Assembly: GCF_009882935.1 (NCBI RefSeq)
Contig: NZ_WTVA01000002.1
Coordinates: 335,827 to 399,826, forward strand
Direction: 5' to 3'
DNA: 64,000 nucleotides
Origin: Sneathiella chungangensis
GTDB taxonomy: Bacteria; Pseudomonadota; Alphaproteobacteria; Sneathiellales; Sneathiellaceae
Under the pieces are notes generated by a model that searched no databases, was not told where the DNA came from, and saw only the letters and a program-made list of their open reading frames with translations. Below, piece by piece: positions 5,617-20,427 of the stretch. Position numbers and translations under genes: made by a program. Numbering within the stretch: the first letter of the stretch is position 1; every line of letters begins with the position of its first letter.

Positions 5617-6381
5617 ATGAATCAGCTAACAGATCAGGTCATAATTGTCACCGGGGCGAGCCGGGGCATCGGCGCAGCAGCGGCGATTGCGCTTGCCGAA
5701 AGCGGCGCGAAACTCTGCCTGAGTTCGCGCAGTGCCGCCGCCTGCAGTGGCGTCCTCGAAGAGATAAAAAATGCCGGCGGCGATGCCTTCGCGGCAAGCT
5801 GCGATGTGTCCGATTTTGCGGCCGTGGAGAAGATGGTGGATGAAACGCTCGATCGATACGGGCGGATCGATGCGTTGATCAATAACGCGGGCATCATCGA
5901 TCCCATCGGTGCGATTGCGACCAGCAACCCGGCGGACTGGGCGAAAAATATTTCGGTCAATCTTGTCGGCGTCTACCACGGTACGCGTGCCGTATTGCCC
6001 CATTTCCTCGATCAGAAATCCGGCGTGATTATCAATATCAGTTCCGGGGCGGCGCATGGCCCGATGGAAGGCTGGAGTGCCTATTGTTCCGGAAAGGCGG
6101 GCGTATACATGATGACGCGGGCGACCGCCCTAGAAGCCGGTGAAAAGGGCGTCCGGGTCTATGGATTCGCGCCGGGAGTCGTGGATACGGAAATGCAGGT
6201 CGCGATCCGCGCCTCCGGTATCAATGCGGTCAGTCAGATACCGCGTGAAAACTTGGCATCGGCCGCGGATCCGGCGAAGGCAATCGCCTGGCTATGCACG
6301 GAAGAGGCGCGTGATCTGGCGGGGCAGGAACTGACGATCCGGGACGAGGCGCTACGCAAGAGAATTGGACTTGCCGTTTGA
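5617..6381 (+). CDS. SDR family NAD(P)-dependent oxidoreductase
   Basis: A classical short-chain dehydrogenase/reductase of 254 aa. Landmarks are the TGASRGIG dinucleotide-binding motif (residues 13-20), CDVSD near residue 64, the NNAG motif (about 92), catalytic Ser in INISSGA, and YCSGK giving the Tyr-x3-Lys pair near residue 155. The substrate is unknown. AGGAAGG precedes the ATG. It follows DUF924 closely, and its 3' end nearly touches the start region of the protease gene. Confidence 0.92.
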   Translation: MNQLTDQVIIVTGASRGIGAAAAIALAESGAKLCLSSRSAAACSGVLEEIKNAGGDAFAASCDVSDFAAVEKMVDETLDRYGRIDALINNAGIIDPIGAIATSNPADWAKNISVNLVGVYHGTRAVLPHFLDQKSGVIINISSGAAHGPMEGWSAYCSGKAGVYMMTRATALEAGEKGVRVYGFAPGVVDTEMQVAIRASGINAVSQIPRENLASAADPAKAIAWLCTEEARDLAGQELTIRDEALRKRIGLAV

Positions 6382-6391
6382 CGTTGCCGCG

Positions 6392-7225
6392 ATGAGGGCA
6401 GCCTGGAAGCTCTCTGGCCGACGCCTCTATCATGGCATGGTGGCGGGGATATTCTCGCTTTTCATCAGTTGTCTTCCGCCGGATGCGGCGGCGGATATGT
6501 CTGTTCCCGCCAAGGCGCTTCAGGTTCCCGGTATCAAAGGCGCTGATAATCGGGTGCGGGTTGACATATCAGCCTATCCTTGGCGGATGATAGGTCGCCT
6601 GAACCGGAATGGCAGCCATTGCACGGCTATCCTTGTAGGACCATCGACGATTCTGACAGCCGCCCATTGCTTCTGGGATAAACGGCGCAACCAATGGTCA
6701 GTCCCGAGCGCCTTTCATTTTGTCGTCGGATATGAAAAAGGTGCCGTCAAGGCCCATTCGAAAATCAATGGCTTTACCCTGTCGGATGGCCGCCCCCCGT
6801 CAGATTCGTTACAAAAGCCTCCGGTCGAGGAGGATTGGGCCCTTGCGTCGCTCGACAGGCCGCTCGGCGATCAATTCGGCTATGCGCCGCTCGCGCAATT
6901 CGGTTCTTCCAGGTTACAGCATAGATTGTCGAAAGGCACCACTGTCGTCCAGGCCGGCTACAGCCGTGATATCGCCCATATCTTGACCGCGGATGAAGAT
7001 TGCAAGATCAGCGGCGTCTCCCGCAGCAAGAAGGGATTACTTCTCCTTCATCAATGTGATGCGACGCAGGGGGATTCAGGATCCCCGCTTTTCATATATG
7101 AGGGCGGCGAGTATGAACTTCTGGGAATCCATGTTGCGACATTGACACGAAAATCGGGCGCGAGCGAGGGCGTTGCCGTATCCGTAGACATGTTCGGCGA
7201 TCAGGTTCGGCAGCTGCGAAAGTGA
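6392..7225 (+). CDS. Secreted trypsin-like (S1) serine protease
   Basis: A chymotrypsin-fold protease with the full catalytic triad: His in LTAAHCFW, Asp in EEDWALASLD and Ser in TQGDSGSPLF. A hydrophobic stretch near residues 17-35 ending in an Ala-rich DAAAD site looks like an export signal, so the mature enzyme is probably periplasmic or extracellular. Cys pairs around His and Ser fit the fold. Length (277 aa from the ATG at 6392) is that of a single S1 domain without PDZ. An in-frame TTG at 6365 would overlap the SDR gene and is less likely. Its target is unknown. Confidence 0.87.
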   Translation: MRAAWKLSGRRLYHGMVAGIFSLFISCLPPDAAADMSVPAKALQVPGIKGADNRVRVDISAYPWRMIGRLNRNGSHCTAILVGPSTILTAAHCFWDKRRNQWSVPSAFHFVVGYEKGAVKAHSKINGFTLSDGRPPSDSLQKPPVEEDWALASLDRPLGDQFGYAPLAQFGSSRLQHRLSKGTTVVQAGYSRDIAHILTADEDCKISGVSRSKKGLLLLHQCDATQGDSGSPLFIYEGGEYELLGIHVATLTRKSGASEGVAVSVDMFGDQVRQLRK

Positions 7226-7371: not shown

Positions 7372-7695
7372 GTGACAATGAGTGATGGGCAGACAGACGG
7401 CTCCGGGATGGCCGAAGAAGATCAAATCGCGCAGGAAGAGAGCGCGAATGCCGATCTGACTTTTCTGGAACTGGACCAGAACGGGACAGTCGATCTCGAC
7501 GCGCTGTTCGATGCCCTGAATATTGCGGCGGTGGAAGGGAATGCCTCCGTGGAATTCCTCCCCGGCGGGAATGAGGGCGGCGGAACTTTATCGATTTCTG
7601 GCTCCGATCTAACGCTCGGCACCGCAGCTGCGGAAGATTTACCGGATGTTTCCGATCTCTTGCTTAAAAGCAGTATCGCGTCGGACGAATCCTGA
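7372..7695 (+). CDS. Small acidic protein of unknown function beside the type I secretion locus
   Basis: A 107-aa protein very rich in Asp/Glu and small residues, with no Cys and no signal peptide. The central part (GTVDLDALFDALNIAAVEG, then a Gly-rich turn, then LSISGSDLTL) loosely resembles the C-terminal secretion regions of type I secreted proteins, and the sequence TAAA occurs near residue 85. Neither resemblance is strong enough to assign it as substrate. It converges with the HD-GYP gene, with stop codons 2 nt apart. The start is GTG at 7372 (GGGGGAAG 2-4 nt upstream) or ATG at 7378. A strong-looking -10 box lies upstream. It may be a small substrate or regulator of the locus, or unrelated. 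Confidence 0.6.
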   Translation: MTMSDGQTDGSGMAEEDQIAQEESANADLTFLELDQNGTVDLDALFDALNIAAVEGNASVEFLPGGNEGGGTLSISGSDLTLGTAAAEDLPDVSDLLLKSSIASDES

Positions 7696-7697
7696 CT

Positions 7698-9758
7698 TCA
7701 GCCTCTTTTCATTTCAATATTGGCCTTGAAGGCGGCTCCGATTTCGGTTTCGAAGAACCGGACCATGGCCTCGACCACAGCCGGGTCATATTTTTCCGGG
7801 TTGTTCTTGAACACGCGCAACGCCTCATCGACACCGATCGCCTCGCGGTAGGATCTCGGTGAGATCCGGGCGATCAGAATATCCGCCATGCCAAGGATCC
7901 GGGCAGGCATGGCAATGTCCGCTTCCGTGAGGCCCTTGGGATACCCACTACCATCCAGCCGCTCGTTAATCTGCGTTACCGCATCCAGAACCTGTTTGTC
8001 CACATCCGCATTGGACAGGATCTTTTCCGACGTCAGGACATGACTTTGCATGATTTCCTGTTCCTTGGGGGTCAGGCGGGATTCCTTTTCCCGGATTTGA
8101 CGCGGAATGGAAATCTTGCCGATCTGCGATAGATGGGCGCCGGTATTGATTACCTTGACGACCTCTGCTGACAGGCCAAGTTCCGCTGAAATGTGATTGG
8201 CAAGCTGCGCCACCCGTAGTGAATGATCCGAAAGATAGGGGTCGTTCGCTTCCAGCATCTGCGAGAGGACGGTAATCGCCTTGCGGTCCATCTCTTCCTT
8301 TCGGCGCTGATACTTGACATATTCCGTAATGTCACTGCTGACCGTCACGATGCCGAGAAACGCACCCTCTTCATTCAGGAAACGGGATTTGGCGACGCGC
8401 AGGGTCCGGACACCGTCACGTGTTTCGATCTCGACAAACGCATTGACAGTCTGTTCCGTCGCGATGGCTTTGCGGTCGTGTTCGGCCAGGTCGCGCGCGG
8501 CCTTCTCGCCGAAAAGCTCCCGATCCGTTTTGCCGGGGATCGACCGGAGCGGGTAATCGGCAAGACGCGCGAGTGAGGGGTTCGCATAAATGTAGCGCCC
8601 TTCAGGGTCGGTCAGGCCGATCAGCTCGTCAATGGTGTTGTTGATGCTTCCCAGAAGCCGCCGCTGGGCATTGATCTGGGCAGCGAATTCCTTGTATTGA
8701 TGGGCAAGCGCCCGGGCATTCTGGCCTTTCAGCATCAACCAGATGACCGTTAGAATGGTAAAGATGATAACCAGAAAGCTGATGGCAAGTCCGACAACGA
8801 ACAAGTTGTAGGTCCGAAGGGAGGCAAGCGCCTCGCTACTGTCGACCTGCTGGAATACAACGAGATTGGTCCCATCGACAAGGGCGCCGGATGAATAGAA
8901 GCTGTTGCCGCTACTGTCCGTGGTTTCACGAAAGCCGATGGCATCCGGCGCAATGCCGGCATCGGCCGTCGCTGAAACGTAGGGTGGCTTTCCGGGAAAC
9001 AGTTCGAAATACTTGCCGCCCGTTTCCTGATATAGCCGCGTCACGTGCTCACTGCTGCTATATGGCGATGGTTTCAGGAAGTCCGACAGCGCATCTGAAG
9101 CCGGGACGGTGAGCAGAAGAATGCCGACGACATCGGCAGTGTTATCAGTCGGATTGCTTTGCGCCGCCCGGATTGGCAGTAAAAAATCGAATACCAGACC
9201 GGCATTACCAGCCCGGATCGGCAGGAGCCTGATTTCCGCCCTGTCATATTGCTCCTGTGCTTCGGCCCGTTGATCTTCCGTCAACGCTGGCGCGCCGCCC
9301 GAGGCGAGATAGGCGCGACCATCCCGGCCAATCAGATACGCACCGATCAATCCATCCTGGTTGGCGAAATTGGTAAAGGCGTTTTGCATATAGGGAAGCT
9401 GTTCGTTCAGCGATCTAGGTAACTTCCCGCCACCGGCGATGTTTATTTCCGTTGCAAACAACTGGAACAATTCATTGCCGGCAATCCTGTTGGAATCCTC
9501 AACCGTGCTGGCGAGCCAGGTTTCTATCACCTGTGCCTTACCGGCGGCGCTGATATCCAGCCGCTTTTGCAGCTCGCCAACCAGTTCCTGTTTGCGGGAC
9601 TGGATTGCATAATCGCCAACGAAGTAGCCGAGGACCGCCAGCACGACAAAAAATAATGCCGCAAATTTCCAGGGTGCCTTGCGGATCAGGCTGCTGTCAT
9701 CGGGGGCGTTGCCGGACAGGAATGAATTCAACTCAAACTTCAGCGTCGCGTCAGTCAT
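7698..9758 (-). CDS. Membrane protein with periplasmic sensor, PAS and degenerate HD-GYP domain (1)
   Basis: 686 aa. Transmembrane segments at about residues 32-50 and 319-342 flank a periplasmic region of roughly 265 residues that looks like a Cache-type sensor. A PAS domain (about 370-490) and an HD-GYP domain (about 500-670) follow. The first His (DHSLRVA) and the DGSGYP loop (D602) remain. The HD dyad is replaced by S544-Q545 (AHLSQIGKI), and the HHE before the GYP loop reads I597-N598-E599. It is therefore unlikely to hydrolyse c-di-GMP and is better seen as a receptor or relay. The ATG at 9758 overlaps the stop of the upstream protease-like gene (ATGACTGA) and has AGGGGA upstream, implying coupled translation. 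It is last in the secretion operon. Confidence 0.85.
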   Translation of the reverse strand: MTDATLKFELNSFLSGNAPDDSSLIRKAPWKFAALFFVVLAVLGYFVGDYAIQSRKQELVGELQKRLDISAAGKAQVIETWLASTVEDSNRIAGNELFQLFATEINIAGGGKLPRSLNEQLPYMQNAFTNFANQDGLIGAYLIGRDGRAYLASGGAPALTEDQRAEAQEQYDRAEIRLLPIRAGNAGLVFDFLLPIRAAQSNPTDNTADVVGILLLTVPASDALSDFLKPSPYSSSEHVTRLYQETGGKYFELFPGKPPYVSATADAGIAPDAIGFRETTDSSGNSFYSSGALVDGTNLVVFQQVDSSEALASLRTYNLFVVGLAISFLVIIFTILTVIWLMLKGQNARALAHQYKEFAAQINAQRRLLGSINNTIDELIGLTDPEGRYIYANPSLARLADYPLRSIPGKTDRELFGEKAARDLAEHDRKAIATEQTVNAFVEIETRDGVRTLRVAKSRFLNEEGAFLGIVTVSSDITEYVKYQRRKEEMDRKAITVLSQMLEANDPYLSDHSLRVAQLANHISAELGLSAEVVKVINTGAHLSQIGKISIPRQIREKESRLTPKEQEIMQSHVLTSEKILSNADVDKQVLDAVTQINERLDGSGYPKGLTEADIAMPARILGMADILIARISPRSYREAIGVDEALRVFKNNPEKYDPAVVEAMVRFFETEIGAAFKANIEMKRG

Positions 9759-10467
9759 TTTTCTCGTCCCCTGAGGCTTCTTGCGCAACCAGGAAATCTT
9801 TCGGAATATGCGCCCATCTTCTCTTTTCATTTACCGAATAGAGCGGCACATAATAATTCACGAGGCGTTCCTCCAGAATTGTGTCGTTTAGACTGTCAAG
9901 AACGTAGCGTTTTCCTCGCAGGCTGACACTTAAGACGGCATGGTCCTTGTTCCGGAGAACATCGTTGGCGACAACGATCCGCATGGAATCCGGATCAAAC
10001 CCGAGCTCTTTCAGGCTTACATATTTCATAATCGCGAAATCGCGGGACCTGCCGCCATTCGAAAGGAATTGAAGAGGCGTGGCCCAGTCATCACTTGTAG
10101 CCGCCGCATCCTCTTCCTGGATATGTTTCCAGCCATTCAGGAAACGGTTTATTTCCTGCAACTGCGCGCGCCTGTTAGTCCGTTGCAATTCAGCAATTTT
10201 GGTTCGCCACAAGGTCATTTGCTGCGACTGGCAGTCTTCAATGCGGTCATCGCATTTGGATGCCGCTTTGGCCAGTTCGGGAAAACTTGACATTACCTCC
10301 AGCCAGCGCGGCAGGGCGGCAAGATTGTCGGACGATATTTCGACCATGCCGAACAATCCCTCCTCCGTTACTTCGGCGCGGGCAGGCGCGCCGGCGACGG
10401 TCCCGAACAGGAAGAAGGCGGAGAATAGGGCCAGAGATATCCGTTTATGTCCTGCGAAAATGCGCAT
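9751..10467 (-). CDS. LapG-like transglutaminase-fold protease homologue lacking the catalytic Cys
   Basis: A 238-aa exported member of the bacterial transglutaminase-like cysteine proteinases (BTLCP, LapG family), with an N-terminal signal (about residues 9-31, ending APARAE). Aligning with its paralogue at 16353-17048, His176 (KDHAVLSV) and Asp191 (YVLDSL) are kept with identical spacing. The nucleophile position is Ser141 (codon 10045-10047) and the segment reads GGRSRDFA where active members have GDCEDYA. The flanking Asp and Glu, which bind calcium in characterised LapG proteins, are both Arg. This is probably a catalytically dead decoy, inhibitor or adaptor. Its start overlaps the HlyD stop by one base (TGATG), and the HD-GYP gene overlaps its end. 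Confidence 0.86.
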   Translation of the reverse strand: MRIFAGHKRISLALFSAFFLFGTVAGAPARAEVTEEGLFGMVEISSDNLAALPRWLEVMSSFPELAKAASKCDDRIEDCQSQQMTLWRTKIAELQRTNRRAQLQEINRFLNGWKHIQEEDAAATSDDWATPLQFLSNGGRSRDFAIMKYVSLKELGFDPDSMRIVVANDVLRNKDHAVLSVSLRGKRYVLDSLNDTILEERLVNYYVPLYSVNEKRRWAHIPKDFLVAQEASGDEKND

Positions 10468-11795
10468 CAGCGTTCCCTCAGGGCCGTATCCCGGGTTTTC
10501 AGGATCGGCTTCAGAATATAGTCGAGCACCGTTTTATGCCCGGTGAGGATATCGACGGAGGCGACCATTCCCGGAATGATCGGGTAGGTATTTTCCCCGC
10601 GTTTCAGGTAGTTCTGATCGGTGCGGACAATGATTTGATAATAGCTTTCGCCCGATTTTTCGTCGACGATCGTATCGGCGCTGATCCGTTCCAGTTTTGC
10701 CGGCAGACCGCCGTAAATCGAATAATCATAGGCCGTGATTTTGACGGTTGCTTCCTGTCCCGGACGCAAAAATGCGATGTCCGACGGCCGGATATTCGCC
10801 TCCACAAGAAGGGTATCGTCGATGGGGACTATTTCTATGATATCCTGTCCCGGCTTCACGACACCCCCGATGGTTTGAATCTTCACATCCTTGACTTCGC
10901 CGGCGACGGGAGAGCGTACGTCTGTTCTGGCCACCCGGTCCTTGACGCCGAGGATTGCCTGCCGGGCCGCTTCATAGTCGGCGCGAACCTGGCTGAGTTC
11001 CTGAGCGGCGCCGCTCTTGAAACTCAGGATTTTCTCCTCGATACGCTGATTTGCCTCCTTCAGCGCCCCCTCGACCCTCGGCAAGGAGAGTTCGGAGGCG
11101 GAAATCTGTCCGCGCAGATCGTTGACCTCTCGCCTCAATTTCAGAGAATCGACCTTTGGAACGATGCCCTTTTTGACAAGTGGTTCGGTAATTTCCATTT
11201 CCTCATTTGCCAACGCAAGACTGGCCCGCAATTGTCTTAGTCGTCCATTGATCTCTGCAATCTCCTGCTGGCGCTGTTGCGCCTGCTGTCGCAGAATCTG
11301 GATTTGCGATTGCAATTCTGCTTGTCTTGCGTTGAACAGGTTCTGCTCGCGAACCGTTATGTCCTTGCGCTCGGCCAGCAATTCCGCGGGGAAGGTCAAC
11401 GGCTCGCCCGTCGCTTCCGCTTCAAGACGGGCAATGCGTCCCATCAGGTTTAGGTAGTTGGATTCAATTTCCCCGGCGCGCGAGGCAAACCCCGTATCGT
11501 CAATCCGAAGAATAATCTGGCCCTTCTCGACGATATCTCCTTCATGCACGAGCAGTTCACGAAGAATGCCGCCTTCCAGATTCTGGATAATCTGTACCTG
11601 GCTGGACGGAATTACCTTGCCATCGCCCCGCGTTACTTCATCGAGAACGGCATTGCTTGCCCAGAAATAGCCGACGACGAAGAAGGCGACGATGCCAAAT
11701 AACAGCATATATGCGCGCGGATGCGGTCCCTGCAATTTAGCGGCAACGACATCCGACGCGAAATCCGAGTCATCCCATTTGAGGTTTGTCGACAT
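10467..11795 (-). CDS. HlyD-family type I secretion periplasmic adaptor (LapC-like)
   Basis: A 442-aa membrane fusion protein that links the inner-membrane ABC exporter to TolC. It has one N-terminal transmembrane helix (about residues 29-48, LLFGIVAFFVVGYFWA), a biotinyl-lipoyl half-motif EGGILRELLVHEGDIVEKGQ, a long coiled-coil region (about 125-285, rich in Gln/Glu/Arg), and the C-terminal beta-barrel segment with VRSPVAGEV and LVEANI. The order and length match HlyD/LapC/PrtE. It begins 2 nt after the stop of the ATPase gene and its stop shares a base with the next start, so it is an internal gene of a tight operon. Confidence 0.95.
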   Translation of the reverse strand: MSTNLKWDDSDFASDVVAAKLQGPHPRAYMLLFGIVAFFVVGYFWASNAVLDEVTRGDGKVIPSSQVQIIQNLEGGILRELLVHEGDIVEKGQIILRIDDTGFASRAGEIESNYLNLMGRIARLEAEATGEPLTFPAELLAERKDITVREQNLFNARQAELQSQIQILRQQAQQRQQEIAEINGRLRQLRASLALANEEMEITEPLVKKGIVPKVDSLKLRREVNDLRGQISASELSLPRVEGALKEANQRIEEKILSFKSGAAQELSQVRADYEAARQAILGVKDRVARTDVRSPVAGEVKDVKIQTIGGVVKPGQDIIEIVPIDDTLLVEANIRPSDIAFLRPGQEATVKITAYDYSIYGGLPAKLERISADTIVDEKSGESYYQIIVRTDQNYLKRGENTYPIIPGMVASVDILTGHKTVLDYILKPILKTRDTALRER

Positions 11796-11797
11796 CG

Positions 11798-14158
11798 TTA
11801 TTCCCTCGTCCCGCGAACCGTCGGTTTGCCGACCGTCGCCGTTACCGACTTGGTGGTATTTTTGCCGCTCTGGCCAAGTTTCAGGATTTCATCACGCGGT
11901 CCATCGGCGGCAACCTTGCCGTTCCCGAGGACGATAATGCGGTCGACCAGCGAGAACAGGGACGTACGATGGGTGACCAGAAGGACCGTTTTACCCTCCA
12001 TATAATTCTTCAGGCGGGCGATCAGCCGGCGTTCGGAATTGAGATCCATCGAACTTGTCGGCTCGTCCAGCATCAAGATCGGCGGATTGGGCAGGAAAGC
12101 GCGGGCAAGGCCAATCGCTTGCCGCTGCCCGCCGGACATCGTCGCGCCTTTCTCGCCGACATGCAGGTCGTAACCGTGCGGATGTTTGCTGATGAAGTCA
12201 TGAACGCCGGAGAGCTTGGCCGCATTCAGGATCATTTCGTCATCCGCCTGTGGATGCCCCATGGTTATATTCTGGCGCACCGTGGCCTGGAAAAGCGTGA
12301 TGTCCTGCATCACGCTGCCGATGCTCCGGCGGATGTCGGAAGGGTCAATCTGGCGGATATCCGTCCCGTCAATCAGAACGGCACCTTCATCCGGTTCGTA
12401 GAGATTTATGAGTAAGCGGGAGATTGTCGTCTTGCCGGATCCGACCGGGCCGATAATGCCGACTTTCTCACCGGCGCGGATCTTGAAGGACACGTTGTTG
12501 AGCGAGGGCAGGTCGCTTCCCGGATATTTGAATGTCACGTCCTTGAATTCGATATCTCCGCGAATGTTTGGACGGCTGAGTTGCCGCTTTTCCGCCCCTC
12601 TTTCCACCGGCAGGGACATGATTTTGTTAAGCCCTTTCAGCGCGACCATCGCCTGATTGAGGCGGGTCAGCAGGCCTGCGATCTGGCCAAGGGGCGCCAT
12701 CGTTCGGCCGGTCAGAATGGTGCAGGCTATCAAGGCGCCGACGGTTATGCTCGAATCCGGCTCGCCCATCAGGATAACGCCGTAAACGACGACGCCGACG
12801 GTCACGAGCTGCATCGCAGCGGCGGAAAGATTGATGCCGAGGCCCGCGAAAAACCGTGCTGCGACGCTTGTTTGCGCCGTCTTGCCGACGAAGCGTTCCC
12901 ACTCCTTCTGCATGTGTCCTTCGATCCCCATGCTTTTCACCGTATCCAGGGCGGAGATCGTTTCGATGATCACGCCATGTTTCTGCGCTGCCTCTTCCGA
13001 AGTCTTGGCGACGGCGCGACGCATGGGCCATTGCAGGAAGAGCCCGACAAACAACACGATCGGGATCGCCACGGCGGGAACAATGAAGAGAGGGCCACCA
13101 ATCAGATATATGATAAACAGGAAAATCGCGAGAAACGGCAGATCGACCAGCGCTGTCACGGTAACCGAGGTGAAAAAATCACGAAGGGTTTCGAATTCGC
13201 GCAGGTGGTTGGCGAATGCGCCGGCGGAGGCCGGACGTGCCTTGACCTGCAGATTGAGGACCTGCTCGAATATCCGGCTTGATAAAAGGATATCCGCGCG
13301 CTTTCCGGCATTGTCCACGAAATAGGCCCGCAGGGTCTTTAGCAAAAGATCGAAACCGATGACGGTGATGACGCCGATGGCCAGCACCCAGAGGGTCTCG
13401 AGCGCCCGGTTGGGAACAACCCGGTCATACACATTCATGATGAAAAGCGGGCTCGCGAGCGCGAAGCTGTTGATTAGGAAGGCAGCGATAAGAACCTGTA
13501 CAAAGGTCGGCCAGAATTGCCACATCGTTCCCCAGAACCAGGAGCCGGTCCGCTGCAGCAGCTTTTCGTCCTTATCGACACGGTATTTGAAATTCGGCCG
13601 GGTAAGGATGGCGTAGCCGACGTATAGGTCTTCCAGTTCCTTGAGCGGCAGGCTGTCCGTGCCTTCGCCCGTCTCCGGGAAAATAACTTTTGCCCTGCCG
13701 TTGTCCCGCTCCAGCAGCACGCACGCGCGGCGACCGTTCAAAAGGATGACGCAGGGCAGGACAACGTCGGGAATATTTTCAAGCTTGCGGTTGGTGATGC
13801 GCGCGCTGATGCCCACCCGTTCGGCGGCGCGCACGAAAAGAGACGGCGTAAGCTTGTTGTCTTCAAGCGGCAGACCATAGATCAGCGCATCCGGTGTGCG
13901 TGGATCGTCAAACAACTTGGTGAGAGCGGCCAGACAGCCGAGGAGGGGGTCCTGATCGGCGCGCGTCACTTCGGAAAGGTTTATCTGCCAGTCGGCCGCA
14001 TTTTCAGTTTCGCCGCTTTCCACCGGTTCCGACGGCGGCCGGCTATCACGGGCGATCGTATCCTTTTCGACCTTCGTCGCATCGCCCCCTTTCGATACGA
14101 AAAGGTCTTCAGCGGCCTCGATGTCCAGAGTAACGGGATTGCGCGAATTTTCGTTCAC
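11798..14158 (-). CDS. Type I secretion ABC exporter, LapB/LssB type with degenerate C39-like domain
   Basis: A 786-aa exporter. The N-terminal region (about residues 60-190) resembles a peptidase C39-like domain whose usual catalytic Cys is absent, as in LapB-type exporters of large RTX adhesins. Six membrane helices follow (about 220-480), then a nucleotide-binding domain with GPVGSGKTT, MSGGQRQ, ILMLDEPTSSMD and the THR switch His. The GTG at 14158 is preferred over GTG 14206: AAGGA sits 7 nt ahead of it, and it overlaps by four bases (GTGA) with a small upstream ORF. It leads the order exporter, HlyD, pseudo-protease, HD-GYP protein. The substrate is not in this window. Confidence 0.94.
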   Translation of the reverse strand: MNENSRNPVTLDIEAAEDLFVSKGGDATKVEKDTIARDSRPPSEPVESGETENAADWQINLSEVTRADQDPLLGCLAALTKLFDDPRTPDALIYGLPLEDNKLTPSLFVRAAERVGISARITNRKLENIPDVVLPCVILLNGRRACVLLERDNGRAKVIFPETGEGTDSLPLKELEDLYVGYAILTRPNFKYRVDKDEKLLQRTGSWFWGTMWQFWPTFVQVLIAAFLINSFALASPLFIMNVYDRVVPNRALETLWVLAIGVITVIGFDLLLKTLRAYFVDNAGKRADILLSSRIFEQVLNLQVKARPASAGAFANHLREFETLRDFFTSVTVTALVDLPFLAIFLFIIYLIGGPLFIVPAVAIPIVLFVGLFLQWPMRRAVAKTSEEAAQKHGVIIETISALDTVKSMGIEGHMQKEWERFVGKTAQTSVAARFFAGLGINLSAAAMQLVTVGVVVYGVILMGEPDSSITVGALIACTILTGRTMAPLGQIAGLLTRLNQAMVALKGLNKIMSLPVERGAEKRQLSRPNIRGDIEFKDVTFKYPGSDLPSLNNVSFKIRAGEKVGIIGPVGSGKTTISRLLINLYEPDEGAVLIDGTDIRQIDPSDIRRSIGSVMQDITLFQATVRQNITMGHPQADDEMILNAAKLSGVHDFISKHPHGYDLHVGEKGATMSGGQRQAIGLARAFLPNPPILMLDEPTSSMDLNSERRLIARLKNYMEGKTVLLVTHRTSLFSLVDRIIVLGNGKVAADGPRDEILKLGQSGKNTTKSVTATVGKPTVRGTRE

Positions 14159-14337
14159 AGATTTGTCCTTGTCATTAACCGGCTCAGCCTGTCGGGCGTA
14201 TCGCACATATACTCTGCGAATTCGCCGGCAGGCCGGAGCAGGTCAGATGGCATCCGCCGCTTCATTTTAATGCCTGAAATCATGATGTCGTCCCGTCCGA
14301 GCCTCTCCGTAAAATCCGGCTTTTTCATGATCTGCAT
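14155..14337 (-). CDS. Possible small coupled ORF upstream of the type I exporter
   Basis: A 60-codon ORF whose TGA stop overlaps the exporter GTG start in a GTGA junction, a typical sign of translational coupling. The product is basic and Met-rich (MKRRMPSDLLRPAGEFAEYM in its middle), with no membrane segment or known motif. A GTGGA lies 5 nt ahead of its first ATG; a second ATG follows three codons later. It may be a leader peptide that sets expression of the secretion operon, or chance. Confidence rests mainly on the overlap and the strong RBS placement for the next gene. Confidence 0.35.
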   Translation of the reverse strand: MQIMKKPDFTERLGRDDIMISGIKMKRRMPSDLLRPAGEFAEYMCDTPDRLSRLMTRTNL

Positions 14338-14950: not shown

Positions 14951-16294
14951 ATGATGCTTAGAAACCGTGCGGTAAAGACGAAAAATGTTCTTTCCGCCAG
15001 TATTCTAACAGCTGTATTCGGTAGCTTTCTTGCGGTGGGGGCCGCGCAGTCTGAAACGTTGAATGAAGCCGTACAGCAAACAGTTTCGACCTATCCCGAA
15101 ATTGCAGAAGCCTCGGCAAACCGCCGGGCGGTGGATCAGGAACTTGAACAGGCCAAAGGCCTTTATCTACCCTCCCTCGATCTGGAAGCCGGAATCGGCT
15201 ACGAATGGACCGACACGGTTACCATCGATAACGAGGATCTCCGCCGGACAGAGTCAAGCTTGCTGCTGGTTCAGACCCTGTATGATGGCGGGTTCAGAAG
15301 CGCGGAAGTCGATCGTCAGGGCAACCGGGTCGATAGCGCCGCCTACCGCGTGAAGGAGCGGGCGGAAGCGATTGCGCTCGATGCTGTTCGGGCATATCTG
15401 GATACACTGCGTAGTCTCGAAATTGTCGAACTTGCCAAAGAAAATGTTGAAAAACATCGTCGTACCTTGAATGAGATTCAAGATCGCGTTCGGGCGGGAC
15501 AAAGTGGCATTGGTGACGATCAGCAGGCGCTGGCTCGGCTTGCCGCCGCGGAAGATACGCTGGTTGAAACCATGCGGGCTCTGGATGACGCGGAAATCAC
15601 CTATCTCCGGGTTGTCGGCGCTCAGCCTGTCAATCTTGAACTGCCGGTTTTTCAGGACGGCGTGCTTCCCGATAATATCGACGATATCGTCGCGCTTGCG
15701 CTTGAGAATAACCCGGATATCCTGTTTGCCTCGTCAGACATAAAAACATCCGAAGCCGAAATCCGCGCGACCCAGGCAAGTTATTATCCAACGGTAAATC
15801 TTGAGGTTGGCGCCTCCGCCGATAACAATCTGGACGGTGTGGAAGGTCATAATGATGACTTCCTTGCGATGCTTCGGCTGCGCTACAACCTGTACCGCGG
15901 CGGCATTGATGAGGGCCGCGAGAAAGAGGCGATAGCCCGCAAGGCGGAAACGGAACAGCGGAAACTCCGGTTCGAACGGCTTGTTGAAGAGGAGGTCCGG
16001 CGGAGCTGGAGCGCCCTCGCACGGTCGGAAGCGCGAGCCGAAGTTCTGGCCGCGGCTGTTGTCGCCAACCGGGAAGTCGCATCTACCTATCGCCAGGAAT
16101 TTGAAATCGGCCAGCGGGATCTTCTGGATCTTCTGGATGCGGATAACGAGCTTTTCAATTCGCGCACATCGTTGGTGACCGTTGAATATGCGGTCCGGTT
16201 TGCAAAATACCGTCTGCTCGCCACCATGGGCACGCTCAACAGCACACTCGGCGTTACCCTGCCGCAGGAAGCGACGTTGCCTGGTAAAGGCTAA
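14951..16294 (+). CDS. tolC: TolC-family outer membrane channel
   Basis: A 447-aa outer-membrane efflux protein with a cleavable signal (to about residue 35, VGAAQSETL) and two tandem OEP repeats. Each begins with a helical segment on the pattern of LNEAVQQTVSTYPEIAEA and IVALALENNPDILFASSD. The second repeat carries ATQASYYPTVNLEVGAS and LRYNLYRGG, characteristic of TolC. It should form the outer-membrane part of the type I exporter encoded divergently. GGGAGAGGGG precedes the ATG at 14951; an adjacent ATG at 14954 is possible. Confidence 0.94.
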   Translation: MMLRNRAVKTKNVLSASILTAVFGSFLAVGAAQSETLNEAVQQTVSTYPEIAEASANRRAVDQELEQAKGLYLPSLDLEAGIGYEWTDTVTIDNEDLRRTESSLLLVQTLYDGGFRSAEVDRQGNRVDSAAYRVKERAEAIALDAVRAYLDTLRSLEIVELAKENVEKHRRTLNEIQDRVRAGQSGIGDDQQALARLAAAEDTLVETMRALDDAEITYLRVVGAQPVNLELPVFQDGVLPDNIDDIVALALENNPDILFASSDIKTSEAEIRATQASYYPTVNLEVGASADNNLDGVEGHNDDFLAMLRLRYNLYRGGIDEGREKEAIARKAETEQRKLRFERLVEEEVRRSWSALARSEARAEVLAAAVVANREVASTYRQEFEIGQRDLLDLLDADNELFNSRTSLVTVEYAVRFAKYRLLATMGTLNSTLGVTLPQEATLPGKG

Positions 16295-17181: not shown

Positions 17182-19350
17182 ATGCCCTCTCGTGAAATAT
17201 ATAACCGGATTGTCATGGCCGATATTGAGATTGAAGCATCAGGAAAAAAGAAGACCTACAAAACGCTGAGCCTCGGCGTGTTGCTGCTTCTTGCCGTTAT
17301 CGCCGCGGGGATCTGGGGCACTTTTAAATTCGTTGATGAACAGCGCGTGCGCGACGTTCGGAATTGGGAAATCCGTCTTGGAATTGTTGCCGACAGCCGC
17401 GCGGCAAGCGTCGATGAATGGCTCCGCAAGCAGGAGCAGGCGATCGGCACCCTCGCGACGAATGCATCTTTACAGGTCTACCTGACACAGTTGGTAATCG
17501 AGACCGCGGAAAACGGCAATTCGATTTCCGAGGTTCCGGAGGCCGGTTACCTCATCAATCTTTTGAATAACCAGGCGGTGATCAGTGGTTTCTGGGAGCC
17601 GGAGGAGCCGCAGATAAGGGCCAATGTCGCGCGACCGGGCCGGGCGGGAATCGGGCTTACGGATGCATCGGGAACGCTTCTCGTTTCCAGCGGCAACATG
17701 CCGCCGATGAACCCGACCATCCGCGCGGCCATGGCCAAGGCCGGTGAAGGACAGGCGGCGCTTATCGATCTTTACGAGGGGATAAACGGTGATCCTACGC
17801 TTGGCTTTGTCTGGCCGGTCTTCGCCGTTCAGGACGAAGGGAGCAGCAAGGATATCATCGGATATGTGATCGGCCTCAGAACAGTGGAGTCATCGCTCTT
17901 TCCGCTCCTGTTTCAGCCGGGAGACACGTTGCAGACAGCGGAGAATTATCTCGTCCGCCGTGACGGAAATCTGGTGCAATATATCTCGCCGCTCGCCGAT
18001 GGTACGCTCGCCCTTGCCCGCAAGCTAAGTATCAAGGATGACCTTGCCGCGGCTTTCGCTGTTGAGCGGCCCGGCGATTTCGCCATCCTCTCGAACTATC
18101 TCGGTAGCAAGGTGCTGGTCACCGGGCGCGCCCTGACAGTCGCGCCCTGGTATCTTGTGCGCACGGTGACGGAGCGTGAAGCGCTTGCGGAAACCGACCA
18201 GCGGCTCTCCACGATGCTCGGAATCTTTCTGCTTCTGATTTTTGCGGTTGCCGGAACGGTTGTTGCCGTCTGGCGGCACGGTACGTCGATCAGGGCGGCG
18301 GAGCTGGCGCTGCGTTACAAGGAAATTGCCAACCAGCTGAAAGACCGTAGCGAGTTTTTAAAGATTGTTACCGATCAGCAGCCGACCGCCATCGCGGTAT
18401 TCGATTCGGAAGACAAATATACCTTCGCCAACAGCGTCGCCGCCGCAGACGTCGATATCTCGCAAGACGAAATGATCGGTAAAAAGGTTGCCAGTGTCCT
18501 CGGCCCGTCGCAGGCCAAGGAAATAATCGAGATGAGCAACCTGGTGCGCAAAGATTACGAGCCGCGTTCGCAGATCAGCCGCCTGCACAGCGATGACGCG
18601 GAAAAGCCGGAACGGGTCATCAAATCCGATTTTGTCCCTTTGCGCTCGGCCAGGGTAAACAGCAAAGAGGTCTTGACCGTCTTTCAGGATATTACCGATG
18701 TCGTCATGGCCCAGGAACGGCGAGAAGAGGTCATGCGCGATCTCGTGTCAACACTTGTCGCCTTTGTCGATCGCCGCGATCCCTATTCCGCCGATCAGTC
18801 GCGCCGCGTGGCGAAGGTCGCGGTTGCCGTCGCGCGTGAAATGGGTGCCTCCGACGAGTTGGTGCGCACGGTCGATATCGCCGGCAACCTGATGAATATC
18901 GGCAAGATACTGGTTCCGGCGGATATCCTGACCAAGACCAACAATCTGACGAAAAAGGAAATGGACGTCATTCGCAATAGCCTGATTTCGAGTGCCGACC
19001 TGCTCGAAGAAGTCGATTTTGACCTGCCGGTTGCCTCGACGTTGCGTCAACTTCAGGAAAACTATGACGGCAGCGGCCAACCGAACGGCCTCGTCGGAAC
19101 GCAAATCAGCGAGGCGGCCAGAATTATTGCCGTCGCCAACGCATTCGTCGGCATGGTCAGCCCGCGGGCCTATCGGGGGGCTCTCGGGTTCAGCGAAGCG
19201 ATAAAGAATTTGCTGGATGCGGCGGATACGCGCTTCGACCGCCGTGTGGTCAGCGCGCTTATCAATTATCTCGAGAATCGCGGTGGGCGCGAGAACTGGA
19301 AATATTTCTCGGAAAGCCTTGATGAGAAGCCTTCCGACATCGGAAGTTAG
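17182..19350 (+). CDS. Membrane protein with periplasmic sensor, PAS and fully degenerate HD-GYP domain (2)
   Basis: 722 aa with the same layout as the HD-GYP protein at 7698-9758. Membrane segments lie near residues 31-52 and 346-364, with about 290 residues of Cache-like periplasmic region between them, then PAS (about 390-510) and HD-GYP (about 525-705). All metal ligands appear lost: the first His is Gln (DQSRRVA), the HD dyad is Met571-Asn572 (NLMNIGKI), the third His is Ser, HHE reads Leu624-Gln625-Glu626, and the later Asp is Asn (VANAF). The GYP loop reads DGSGQP. It cannot be a normal phosphodiesterase. It is divergent from the active LapG-like gene, which suggests it senses or holds that protease. 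AAGG precedes ATG 17182; ATG 17215 is an alternative. Confidence 0.86.
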   Translation: MPSREIYNRIVMADIEIEASGKKKTYKTLSLGVLLLLAVIAAGIWGTFKFVDEQRVRDVRNWEIRLGIVADSRAASVDEWLRKQEQAIGTLATNASLQVYLTQLVIETAENGNSISEVPEAGYLINLLNNQAVISGFWEPEEPQIRANVARPGRAGIGLTDASGTLLVSSGNMPPMNPTIRAAMAKAGEGQAALIDLYEGINGDPTLGFVWPVFAVQDEGSSKDIIGYVIGLRTVESSLFPLLFQPGDTLQTAENYLVRRDGNLVQYISPLADGTLALARKLSIKDDLAAAFAVERPGDFAILSNYLGSKVLVTGRALTVAPWYLVRTVTEREALAETDQRLSTMLGIFLLLIFAVAGTVVAVWRHGTSIRAAELALRYKEIANQLKDRSEFLKIVTDQQPTAIAVFDSEDKYTFANSVAAADVDISQDEMIGKKVASVLGPSQAKEIIEMSNLVRKDYEPRSQISRLHSDDAEKPERVIKSDFVPLRSARVNSKEVLTVFQDITDVVMAQERREEVMRDLVSTLVAFVDRRDPYSADQSRRVAKVAVAVAREMGASDELVRTVDIAGNLMNIGKILVPADILTKTNNLTKKEMDVIRNSLISSADLLEEVDFDLPVASTLRQLQENYDGSGQPNGLVGTQISEAARIIAVANAFVGMVSPRAYRGALGFSEAIKNLLDAADTRFDRRVVSALINYLENRGGRENWKYFSESLDEKPSDIGS

Positions 19351-19362
19351 CAGCCGTTTACC

Positions 19363-20427
19363 TTAAAGGAGTGGGGTCGCCTGAAGCGCCGCCGGTCCGG
19401 TCAGGATTAATTTCACGACCTCGCTTTGCCGGCTGGTGTCGGTCTTGCGGAAAATCTGCCGCAGCTGGGATCGAACGGTATGCATGCTCACCCCCCATTC
19501 ATCAGCAAGATCATCAAGCTTGTGACCGTTTGTCAGCCCGAGAGCAAGCCGCCCTTCGGCTGGTGTCAAACCATAGAGACGGCAAATCGTTTCAATCGAT
19601 AGCTCCACCGGTTCGGCCGGATCGGAGACGAACAGGACCGCCCCTTTGCCGGCGACGCCCGTGCCGATCGGCGCGACCATGACATTGAGCGGGTAATCGC
19701 TCTCCATGCGCGTCAGGGATATGGCGAAATCGCCTTCCGATTTCGTGTCGTCAGGCGGCGAAAGGGTATCCGCGAGCAGTTTGGCAAGCGCCCGGCTCTC
19801 TCCCGGCAGGGTCGCCCGGCAGATCCGATCTGCGCCGACGACAAGTCCGTCCCCCTGTTCGAGGTAGCGTTTCGCCTTACCGTTAAAGAACAGGATCTTG
19901 GAATCTGCCGTTACCAGAATTACGCCGATGGGCAATCTATTGAGGACCGCCGTTGCGGAATCAAGGAGCGGCGCCGTTTCGGCGCTCCGCCGGTGTCCCT
20001 GATGACGTTGGATTGCGTTCAGGAGGCTGCGGGAAATGCCATCGGTGGTTAGCTGGCTCTTGATGAGATAGTCCTGGGCCCCCTTACTAATCGCTTCTCG
20101 GCCTACTTTTTCGTCTTCATCGGTCATGACGACGACGGGAGTCTGCGGAATTTTCTGCGACAGAAGGGAGATTGCGTCAAACCTATTTTCCGACTTTTCC
20201 GTCAGATCAAGGATGATCACATCGCCATTTTGCGACCGGGCCGCCTTGGCAAAGTCGTCAAGGCAGGCAACATGCTCGAATGAAAATTTTGCATTCGCGG
20301 CGTTAGAGAGCAACCAGCTCAACTGCTGGGCATCCTCCTCCTTGCGTCCTATAAATCGGACGGTCGCGATAGAATTTTCGTCCATTGGGTACGATTTTCC
20401 GGTTTTTGCCTGACGGGCCTCGGCCAT
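19363..20427 (-). CDS. Response regulator: receiver, PAS-like middle, LuxR-type HTH
   Basis: 354 aa. The receiver domain (about residues 20-145) keeps the phospho-acceptor Asp (VIILDLTEKS), the Thr (VVMTDEDE) and the Lys (DYLIKSQL). The usual acidic pair at the first strand is replaced (VRFIGRKEED), so phosphorylation may be unusual or absent. A PAS-like middle (about 155-270) precedes a C-terminal LuxR helix-turn-helix (LTPAEGRLALGLTNGHKLDDL, then MHTVRSQLRQIFRKT). No histidine kinase is adjacent. It converges with the second HD-GYP gene (12-nt gap), so it may control the secretion locus. ATG 20385 is a possible alternative start. Confidence 0.85.
   Translation of the reverse strand: MAEARQAKTGKSYPMDENSIATVRFIGRKEEDAQQLSWLLSNAANAKFSFEHVACLDDFAKAARSQNGDVIILDLTEKSENRFDAISLLSQKIPQTPVVVMTDEDEKVGREAISKGAQDYLIKSQLTTDGISRSLLNAIQRHQGHRRSAETAPLLDSATAVLNRLPIGVILVTADSKILFFNGKAKRYLEQGDGLVVGADRICRATLPGESRALAKLLADTLSPPDDTKSEGDFAISLTRMESDYPLNVMVAPIGTGVAGKGAVLFVSDPAEPVELSIETICRLYGLTPAEGRLALGLTNGHKLDDLADEWGVSMHTVRSQLRQIFRKTDTSRQSEVVKLILTGPAALQATPLL

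Follow-up and report, generated by a model that had tools for sequence, protein, structure and literature searches.

A LapG-family gene in a T1SS operon of Sneathiella chungangensis was found to have lost its catalytic cysteine and to have been conserved in that state, and its status as a pseudoenzyme is well supported by the sequence comparisons given below. The gene (pseudo-LapG, P0001) lies at 9751-10467 on the minus strand of the window, the whole stretch of 64,000 nucleotides that was analysed, and was identified by ORF translation and profile match as a Cys-less Peptidase_C93 protein of 238 amino acids. On phylogenetic grounds it was shown to be a vertically kept LapG homologue, descended through one old nucleophile loss in the T1SS-operon LapG of one alphaproteobacterial lineage. 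We lean towards an account in which this conserved Cys-less LapG, provided with its own HD-GYP receptor, does not cut and would bind as a decoy or shield against adhesin release. The best reading of the locus as a whole is that a single secretion system serves two DvhDG-like pairs, and that the protease of one of them is dead and acts through binding.

Sequence and predicted structure of pseudo-LapG

Translation of the minus-strand ORF gave the site motif GGRSRDFA. Ser141 (codon TCC, 10045-10047) occupies the position of the catalytic Cys, so that the Cys-His-Asp triad of active LapG is incomplete, and Arg140 and Arg142 on either side of it (nucleophile region 10042-10050, minus strand) stand at the positions of the calcium-site Asp and Glu, so that the calcium site is lost as well. 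His176 and Asp191 are kept and align with His180 and Asp195 of an active-type paralogue (P0002; 16353-17048, minus strand), which reads FGDCEDYA, with the GDCEDYA motif placed around Cys145. The reading frame of pseudo-LapG is open and the N-terminus carries a Sec-type signal sequence. The Ser replacement in GRSRDFA, the Cys-bearing paralogue, the retained His and Asp, the intact frame and the signal peptide had all been put forward in an earlier sequence-only reading and were confirmed here by translation and alignment. The claim that both calcium-site flanks are Arg stood for the window and fell for most congeners, which read GDSED with Asp and Glu both present.

Pseudo-LapG scored 49.1 bits against Pfam Peptidase_C93/BTLCP (PF06035; cut-off 27), which places it in the family, and P0002 scored 67.5 bits against the same cut-off. 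Both proteins fell below the cut-off of 320 bits for the NCBIfam LapG equivalog NF045674, with 69.5 bits for pseudo-LapG and 93 bits for P0002. These two are the only C93 genes of the whole 3.81-Mb genome. The fold of pseudo-LapG was predicted with AlphaFold2 from a 46-sequence alignment, giving a mean pLDDT of 88, with most core positions exceeding 95. When the model was compared with the PDB using Foldseek, the top match was Legionella LapG (4fgq, E 4.7e-12), followed by 4u65, the LapG of the LapD-output complex. As modelled, pseudo-LapG has the LapG transglutaminase-like fold.

Organization of the locus

The operon is tight and head-to-tail, and consists of an ABC permease/ATPase of the LssB/LapB type (11798-14206, minus strand; TIGR03375, 941 bits), a HlyD-type T1SS adaptor (10467-11795, minus strand; TIGR01843, 417 bits), pseudo-LapG and the receptor HD-GYP1 (7698-9758, minus strand). 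The stop codon of the HlyD gene overlaps the pseudo-LapG start in TGATG, and the stop of pseudo-LapG overlaps the start of HD-GYP1 by 8 bases, ATGACTGA. On the other side of the operon stand a TolC-family outer-membrane T1SS channel (14951-16294, plus strand; TIGR01844, 295 bits), the active-type LapG and, divergent from it, a second receptor, HD-GYP2 (17182-19350, plus strand). A receiver plus LuxR-like regulator (19363-20427, minus strand) is conserved beside the module in Sneathiella. The order ABC, HlyD, pseudo-LapG, HD-GYP1 was conserved wherever the contigs reach. Each half of the locus is also found by itself: the ABC-HlyD-LapG-HD-GYP1 half, with a Cys-bearing LapG, stands alone in Kiloniellales and others, and the divergent LapG-HD-GYP2 half stands alone in many families.

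The window also contains a trypsin-like secreted protease (6365-7225, plus strand). In Kiloniellales and other MAGs whose operon is Cys-bearing (L083, L086, L087, L089-L091), a homologue of this protease comes after HD-GYP1. A small acidic protein conserved in the genus is encoded at 7372-7695 on the plus strand (core VDLDALFDALNIA, C-terminus SDES). Its C-terminal DES is invariant across Sneathiella at this locus and it gave no Pfam match; that it is a small T1SS substrate or an accessory protein is speculative.

The best adhesin candidate (G000 C10, L166:2789-6913) is a protein of 1375 amino acids without Cys that is encoded on a separate contig. Its N-terminus is FecR-like or retention-like, with a retention-module match below the cut-off, and no conserved [TAP]AAG site was found in it. 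The search for retention modules returned only sub-threshold matches, and VCBS repeats are absent from the genome of the window. From these sequence features the 1375-residue protein is a candidate LapG substrate. Its gene adjoins an apparent CHASE2-type cyclase gene, and the protein ends in DES like the small acidic protein, an end that is possibly a T1SS signal shared by both.

Conservation and selection in Sneathiella

The orthologue of pseudo-LapG was readable in 23 of the 24 Sneathiella congeners searched, and the nucleophile position is Ser in every one of them. A Cys at this position in sister species, which the sequence-only reading had named as the finding that would speak against it, was looked for and was seen in none. 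The same state in all 23, which is far more than chance would give, ruled out a single-strain mutation, and likewise a sequencing or frame error.

The residues around the nucleophile position are less uniform. Most Sneathiella species read GDSEDFA, with Asp and Glu present, the closest relatives of the window read GGGSRDFA or GGGSKDFA, and the double Arg of GRSRDFA occurs in the window alone among the congeners compared. The His is also replaced, by Gln, in the pseudo-LapG of S. litorea (G018). Since most species still have GDSEDFA, Cys was lost first, with the remaining site eroding within one subclade; on these alignments the loss of the calcium residues is a late, local step that followed the loss of Cys.

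An active-type copy was recovered in addition to pseudo-LapG from 20 of the 23 congeners, the other three assemblies being fragmented or without a full second copy, and every active-type copy read from those congeners retains Cys. A Cys-bearing copy was also present in G025, G116, G120, G125 and G220, while no full one was found in the two MAGs G117 and G118. Two C93 copies occur in each of G192 and G358 and all have Cys, so that a second copy is insufficient for the loss of Cys.

Between close species dN/dS was 0.04-0.10 for pseudo-LapG and 0.04-0.11 for the active-type copy, values that are approximate because synonymous sites are partly saturated. Trp, Asn, Cys72, Cys79 and Asp191 are among the invariant residues of pseudo-LapG, and the protein is full length wherever the contig allows and is present in more than one genus. 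With a mean distance of 0.62, compared to 0.22-0.30 for the T1SS genes, pseudo-LapG is the faster to diverge, a pattern that is still unlike that of a pseudogene. As judged from these rates, pseudo-LapG is under strong purifying selection across species despite the loss of a catalytic residue. The proposal that it is a maintained pseudo-protease rather than a decaying gene thus agrees with the lack of Cys in sister species, with a single Cys-less clade and with a dN/dS equal to that of the active-type copy.

Phylogeny of Cys-less C93 proteins

The subfamily of pseudo-LapG was recognised by SQQMTLWR and NExxRWAHI and has members in other alphaproteobacteria. Outside Sneathiella the site residue is Ser in three MAGs, Thr in one and Ala in one, and the remaining lineages, Kiloniellales MAGs included, read GDCEDYA, GDCEDYS or GDCEDFA. 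A search of the taxonomic order (26 genomes) added just one further genus, with Pro at the nucleophile position. After removal of the site columns, the tree placed all 26 Cys-less sequences of this group in one clade (UFBoot 98, SH-aLRT 92), and this clade was also obtained from a smaller sequence set with support of 91/80. Cys-bearing relatives surround it in the tree and the active-type paralogues fall outside it, so that a single loss of Cys is enough to explain it. Repeated loss within the Sneathiella clade was considered and set aside, the tree requiring one loss only. Whether the Cys-less form is a conserved subfamily among BTLCP relatives, a check suggested in the sequence-only reading, was answered positively.

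Cys was lost a second time, independently, in G220, where Asp is found at the site and a Cys-bearing C93 copy is carried elsewhere in the genome. The Cys-to-Asp gene (L216:9105-9884) adjoins a degenerate HD-GYP gene (L216:6982-9084) in which HD has become AG. Among 60 further C93 copies sampled across the class, three more were without Cys, and no T1SS or HD-GYP genes were found around the two of these whose settings were read. Cys-less C93 copies with Ser were noted outside T1SS loci at L291:1783-2646, L292 and L293:8386-9168. In G188 and G279, which are 1.4-Mb genomes, a Cys-less C93 protein in which Arg takes the place of His in the alignment is the sole C93 protein found, so that dependence on an active partner is not needed there. 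C93 genes have thus lost Cys more than once, but the form found in the T1SS operon is a subfamily that is both old and conserved. A search of plasmids gave distant relatives only.

The HD-GYP receptors

HD-GYP1 is a dCache-PAS-HD-GYP receptor of 686 amino acids that matches the crystal structures of DvhD (9rc0, 3.7e-47; 9rbz, 2.1e-38; dCache 9rc2, 3.6e-14), and HD-GYP2 matches 9rc0 (1.7e-44) and 9rbz. DvhD is a c-di-GMP receptor that is unable to hydrolyse its ligand, its HD having become SQ, and is thought to restrain DvhG at high c-di-GMP (PMC13090378). SQ likewise replaces HD in the HD-GYP1 beside every pseudo-LapG of the Cys-less clade, and MN replaces HD in HD-GYP2, so that both are likely to be receptors. 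Of the DvhD c-di-GMP contacts, Y523, L577, Y621, R650 and Y652 are kept in HD-GYP1 of the window and K582, M646 and E668 are lost. L577, R650 and Y652 are kept in the HD-GYP1 beside every pseudo-LapG, whereas Y523 and Y621 vary in a few; Y621 is missing from HD-GYP2. By their residues the two proteins are probably c-di-GMP receptors rather than phosphodiesterases, and the arrangement in the operon is of the DvhDG type, a LapG-family gene adjoining a dCache-PAS-HD-GYP receptor without the HD metal residues.

The evolutionary rate of pseudo-LapG co-varied weakly with that of the HD-GYP1 periplasmic domain (r 0.32, p 0.018), r having fallen from 0.56 under a quadratic baseline and the pair being one of about a dozen compared, and did not co-vary with that of the cytoplasmic half. 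Co-variation of this type was absent in Cys-bearing operons. The result points weakly to an interface between pseudo-LapG and the periplasmic domain of HD-GYP1. Between HD-GYP1 and HD-GYP2 the rates of the periplasmic domains were correlated across Sneathiella (r 0.61, p 0.0005), the HD-GYP1 domain evolving approximately three times faster than its HD-GYP2 counterpart (0.97 compared to 0.33).

Discussion

Descriptions of Lap-type switches involve a single protease and a single receptor. The closest known arrangement to the Sneathiella operon is DvhG/DvhD of Desulfovibrio vulgaris, in which a LapG-family protein also stands beside an SQ-type dCache-PAS-HD-GYP receptor in a T1SS adhesin operon; DvhG, however, has C317 and the Asp/Glu calcium residues and cuts, whereas in Sneathiella the copy in the operon has no Cys and is accompanied by a neighbouring second pair that is Cys-bearing (PMC13090378). 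Pseudo-LapG shares fold and sequence with the LapG of the LapG/LapD systems of Pseudomonas and Legionella (4fgo-4fgq), as the locus shares the LssB/LapB-type T1SS, but a GGDEF-EAL LapD is absent and the nucleophile and calcium residues are gone. HvyA and other alphaproteobacterial BTLCPs are periplasmic members of the same Pfam family; unlike pseudo-LapG, HvyA requires its Cys, and it acts on capsulation (PMC4241560).

Loss of activity follows from comparable substitutions in these enzymes. DvhG C317A does not cut and the DvhG calcium-site double mutant, Asp and Glu to Ala, is inactive (PMC13090378), LapG C135A does not cut (PMC3032545), and HvyA C192S and H226Q are non-functional (PMC4241560). 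From its residues and by analogy with these Cys-to-Ala and Cys-to-Ser mutants, we infer that pseudo-LapG would not cut. It is very improbable that Ser141 is instead a working nucleophile, as in a serine-type peptidase or acyltransferase. The Ser-His-Asp arrangement is retained in the window and most congeners, which would suit such an enzyme, but the HvyA C192S result weighs against it, as do the Gln for His in S. litorea, the missing calcium-site residues in the subclade of the window, and the occurrence of Ala, Pro and Thr in place of Ser within the same clade, a tolerance that makes nucleophilic catalysis unlikely as the conserved role. It is also improbable that pseudo-LapG is a non-functional relic kept only by its translationally coupled operon position. 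Its faster divergence than the T1SS genes and the drift of calcium residues in the subclade of the window are consistent with a relic, while the low dN/dS, full length, invariant residues and retention in more than one genus argue against one.

What selection has preserved is the fold together with the association with HD-GYP1, so that pseudo-LapG most likely acts by binding; the sequence-only reading had suggested a decoy, an inhibitor or a structural partner. Dead relatives of proteases kept for regulation by binding are known in iRhoms and CspC (PMC6451368, PMC6636752), which belong to protease families unrelated to LapG. The main rival to a competitor is a positive role, with pseudo-LapG serving HD-GYP1 or the secretion channel as a structural or allosteric partner that would dock the adhesin, stabilise the receptor or activate or position P0002, as iRhom pseudoproteases do with other clients. 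This we regard as rather unlikely. Its fixed position between HlyD and HD-GYP1, the co-variation confined to the HD-GYP1 periplasmic domain and the co-variation between the two receptors, a hint of a joint complex, would fit such a partner, but the co-variation of pseudo-LapG with HD-GYP1 is weak. In the decoy or shield account that we favour, HD-GYP1 would hold or release pseudo-LapG depending on c-di-GMP, and pseudo-LapG would occupy what active LapG needs, be it the retention region or cleavage site of the adhesin or a surface of the receptor. This occupancy would shield the adhesin from release. The Cys-less C93 proteins that stand alone in G188 and G279, and the lack of rate co-variation in Cys-bearing operons, weigh against this account. 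The second pair beside the operon, the Cys-bearing LapG with HD-GYP2, retains the cutting motif. We offer tentatively a circuit in which a cutting LapG competes with a dead one, both paired with a degenerate HD-GYP receptor of their own, and c-di-GMP sets adhesin retention through this competition.

No LapG-family pseudoprotease was found in the open-access literature searched. Complexes of the adhesin or dCache domain with a LapG-type protease were left as a model in the 2026 DvhDG study (PMC13090378), and pseudo-LapG may serve as a natural non-cutting LapG for crystallising them. Marine Sneathiella keep a working-type adhesin-cutting protease together with a long-dead second copy that has its own second-messenger sensor and that probably binds the partners of the first without cutting them. 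If the preferred reading is true, this protease-dead LapG, fixed in a genus and coupled to its own c-di-GMP receptor next to an active-type pair, would mean that competition is a way of tuning the release of adhesin, and a dedicated pseudoprotease antagonist would be built into a Lap/Dvh-type biofilm switch.
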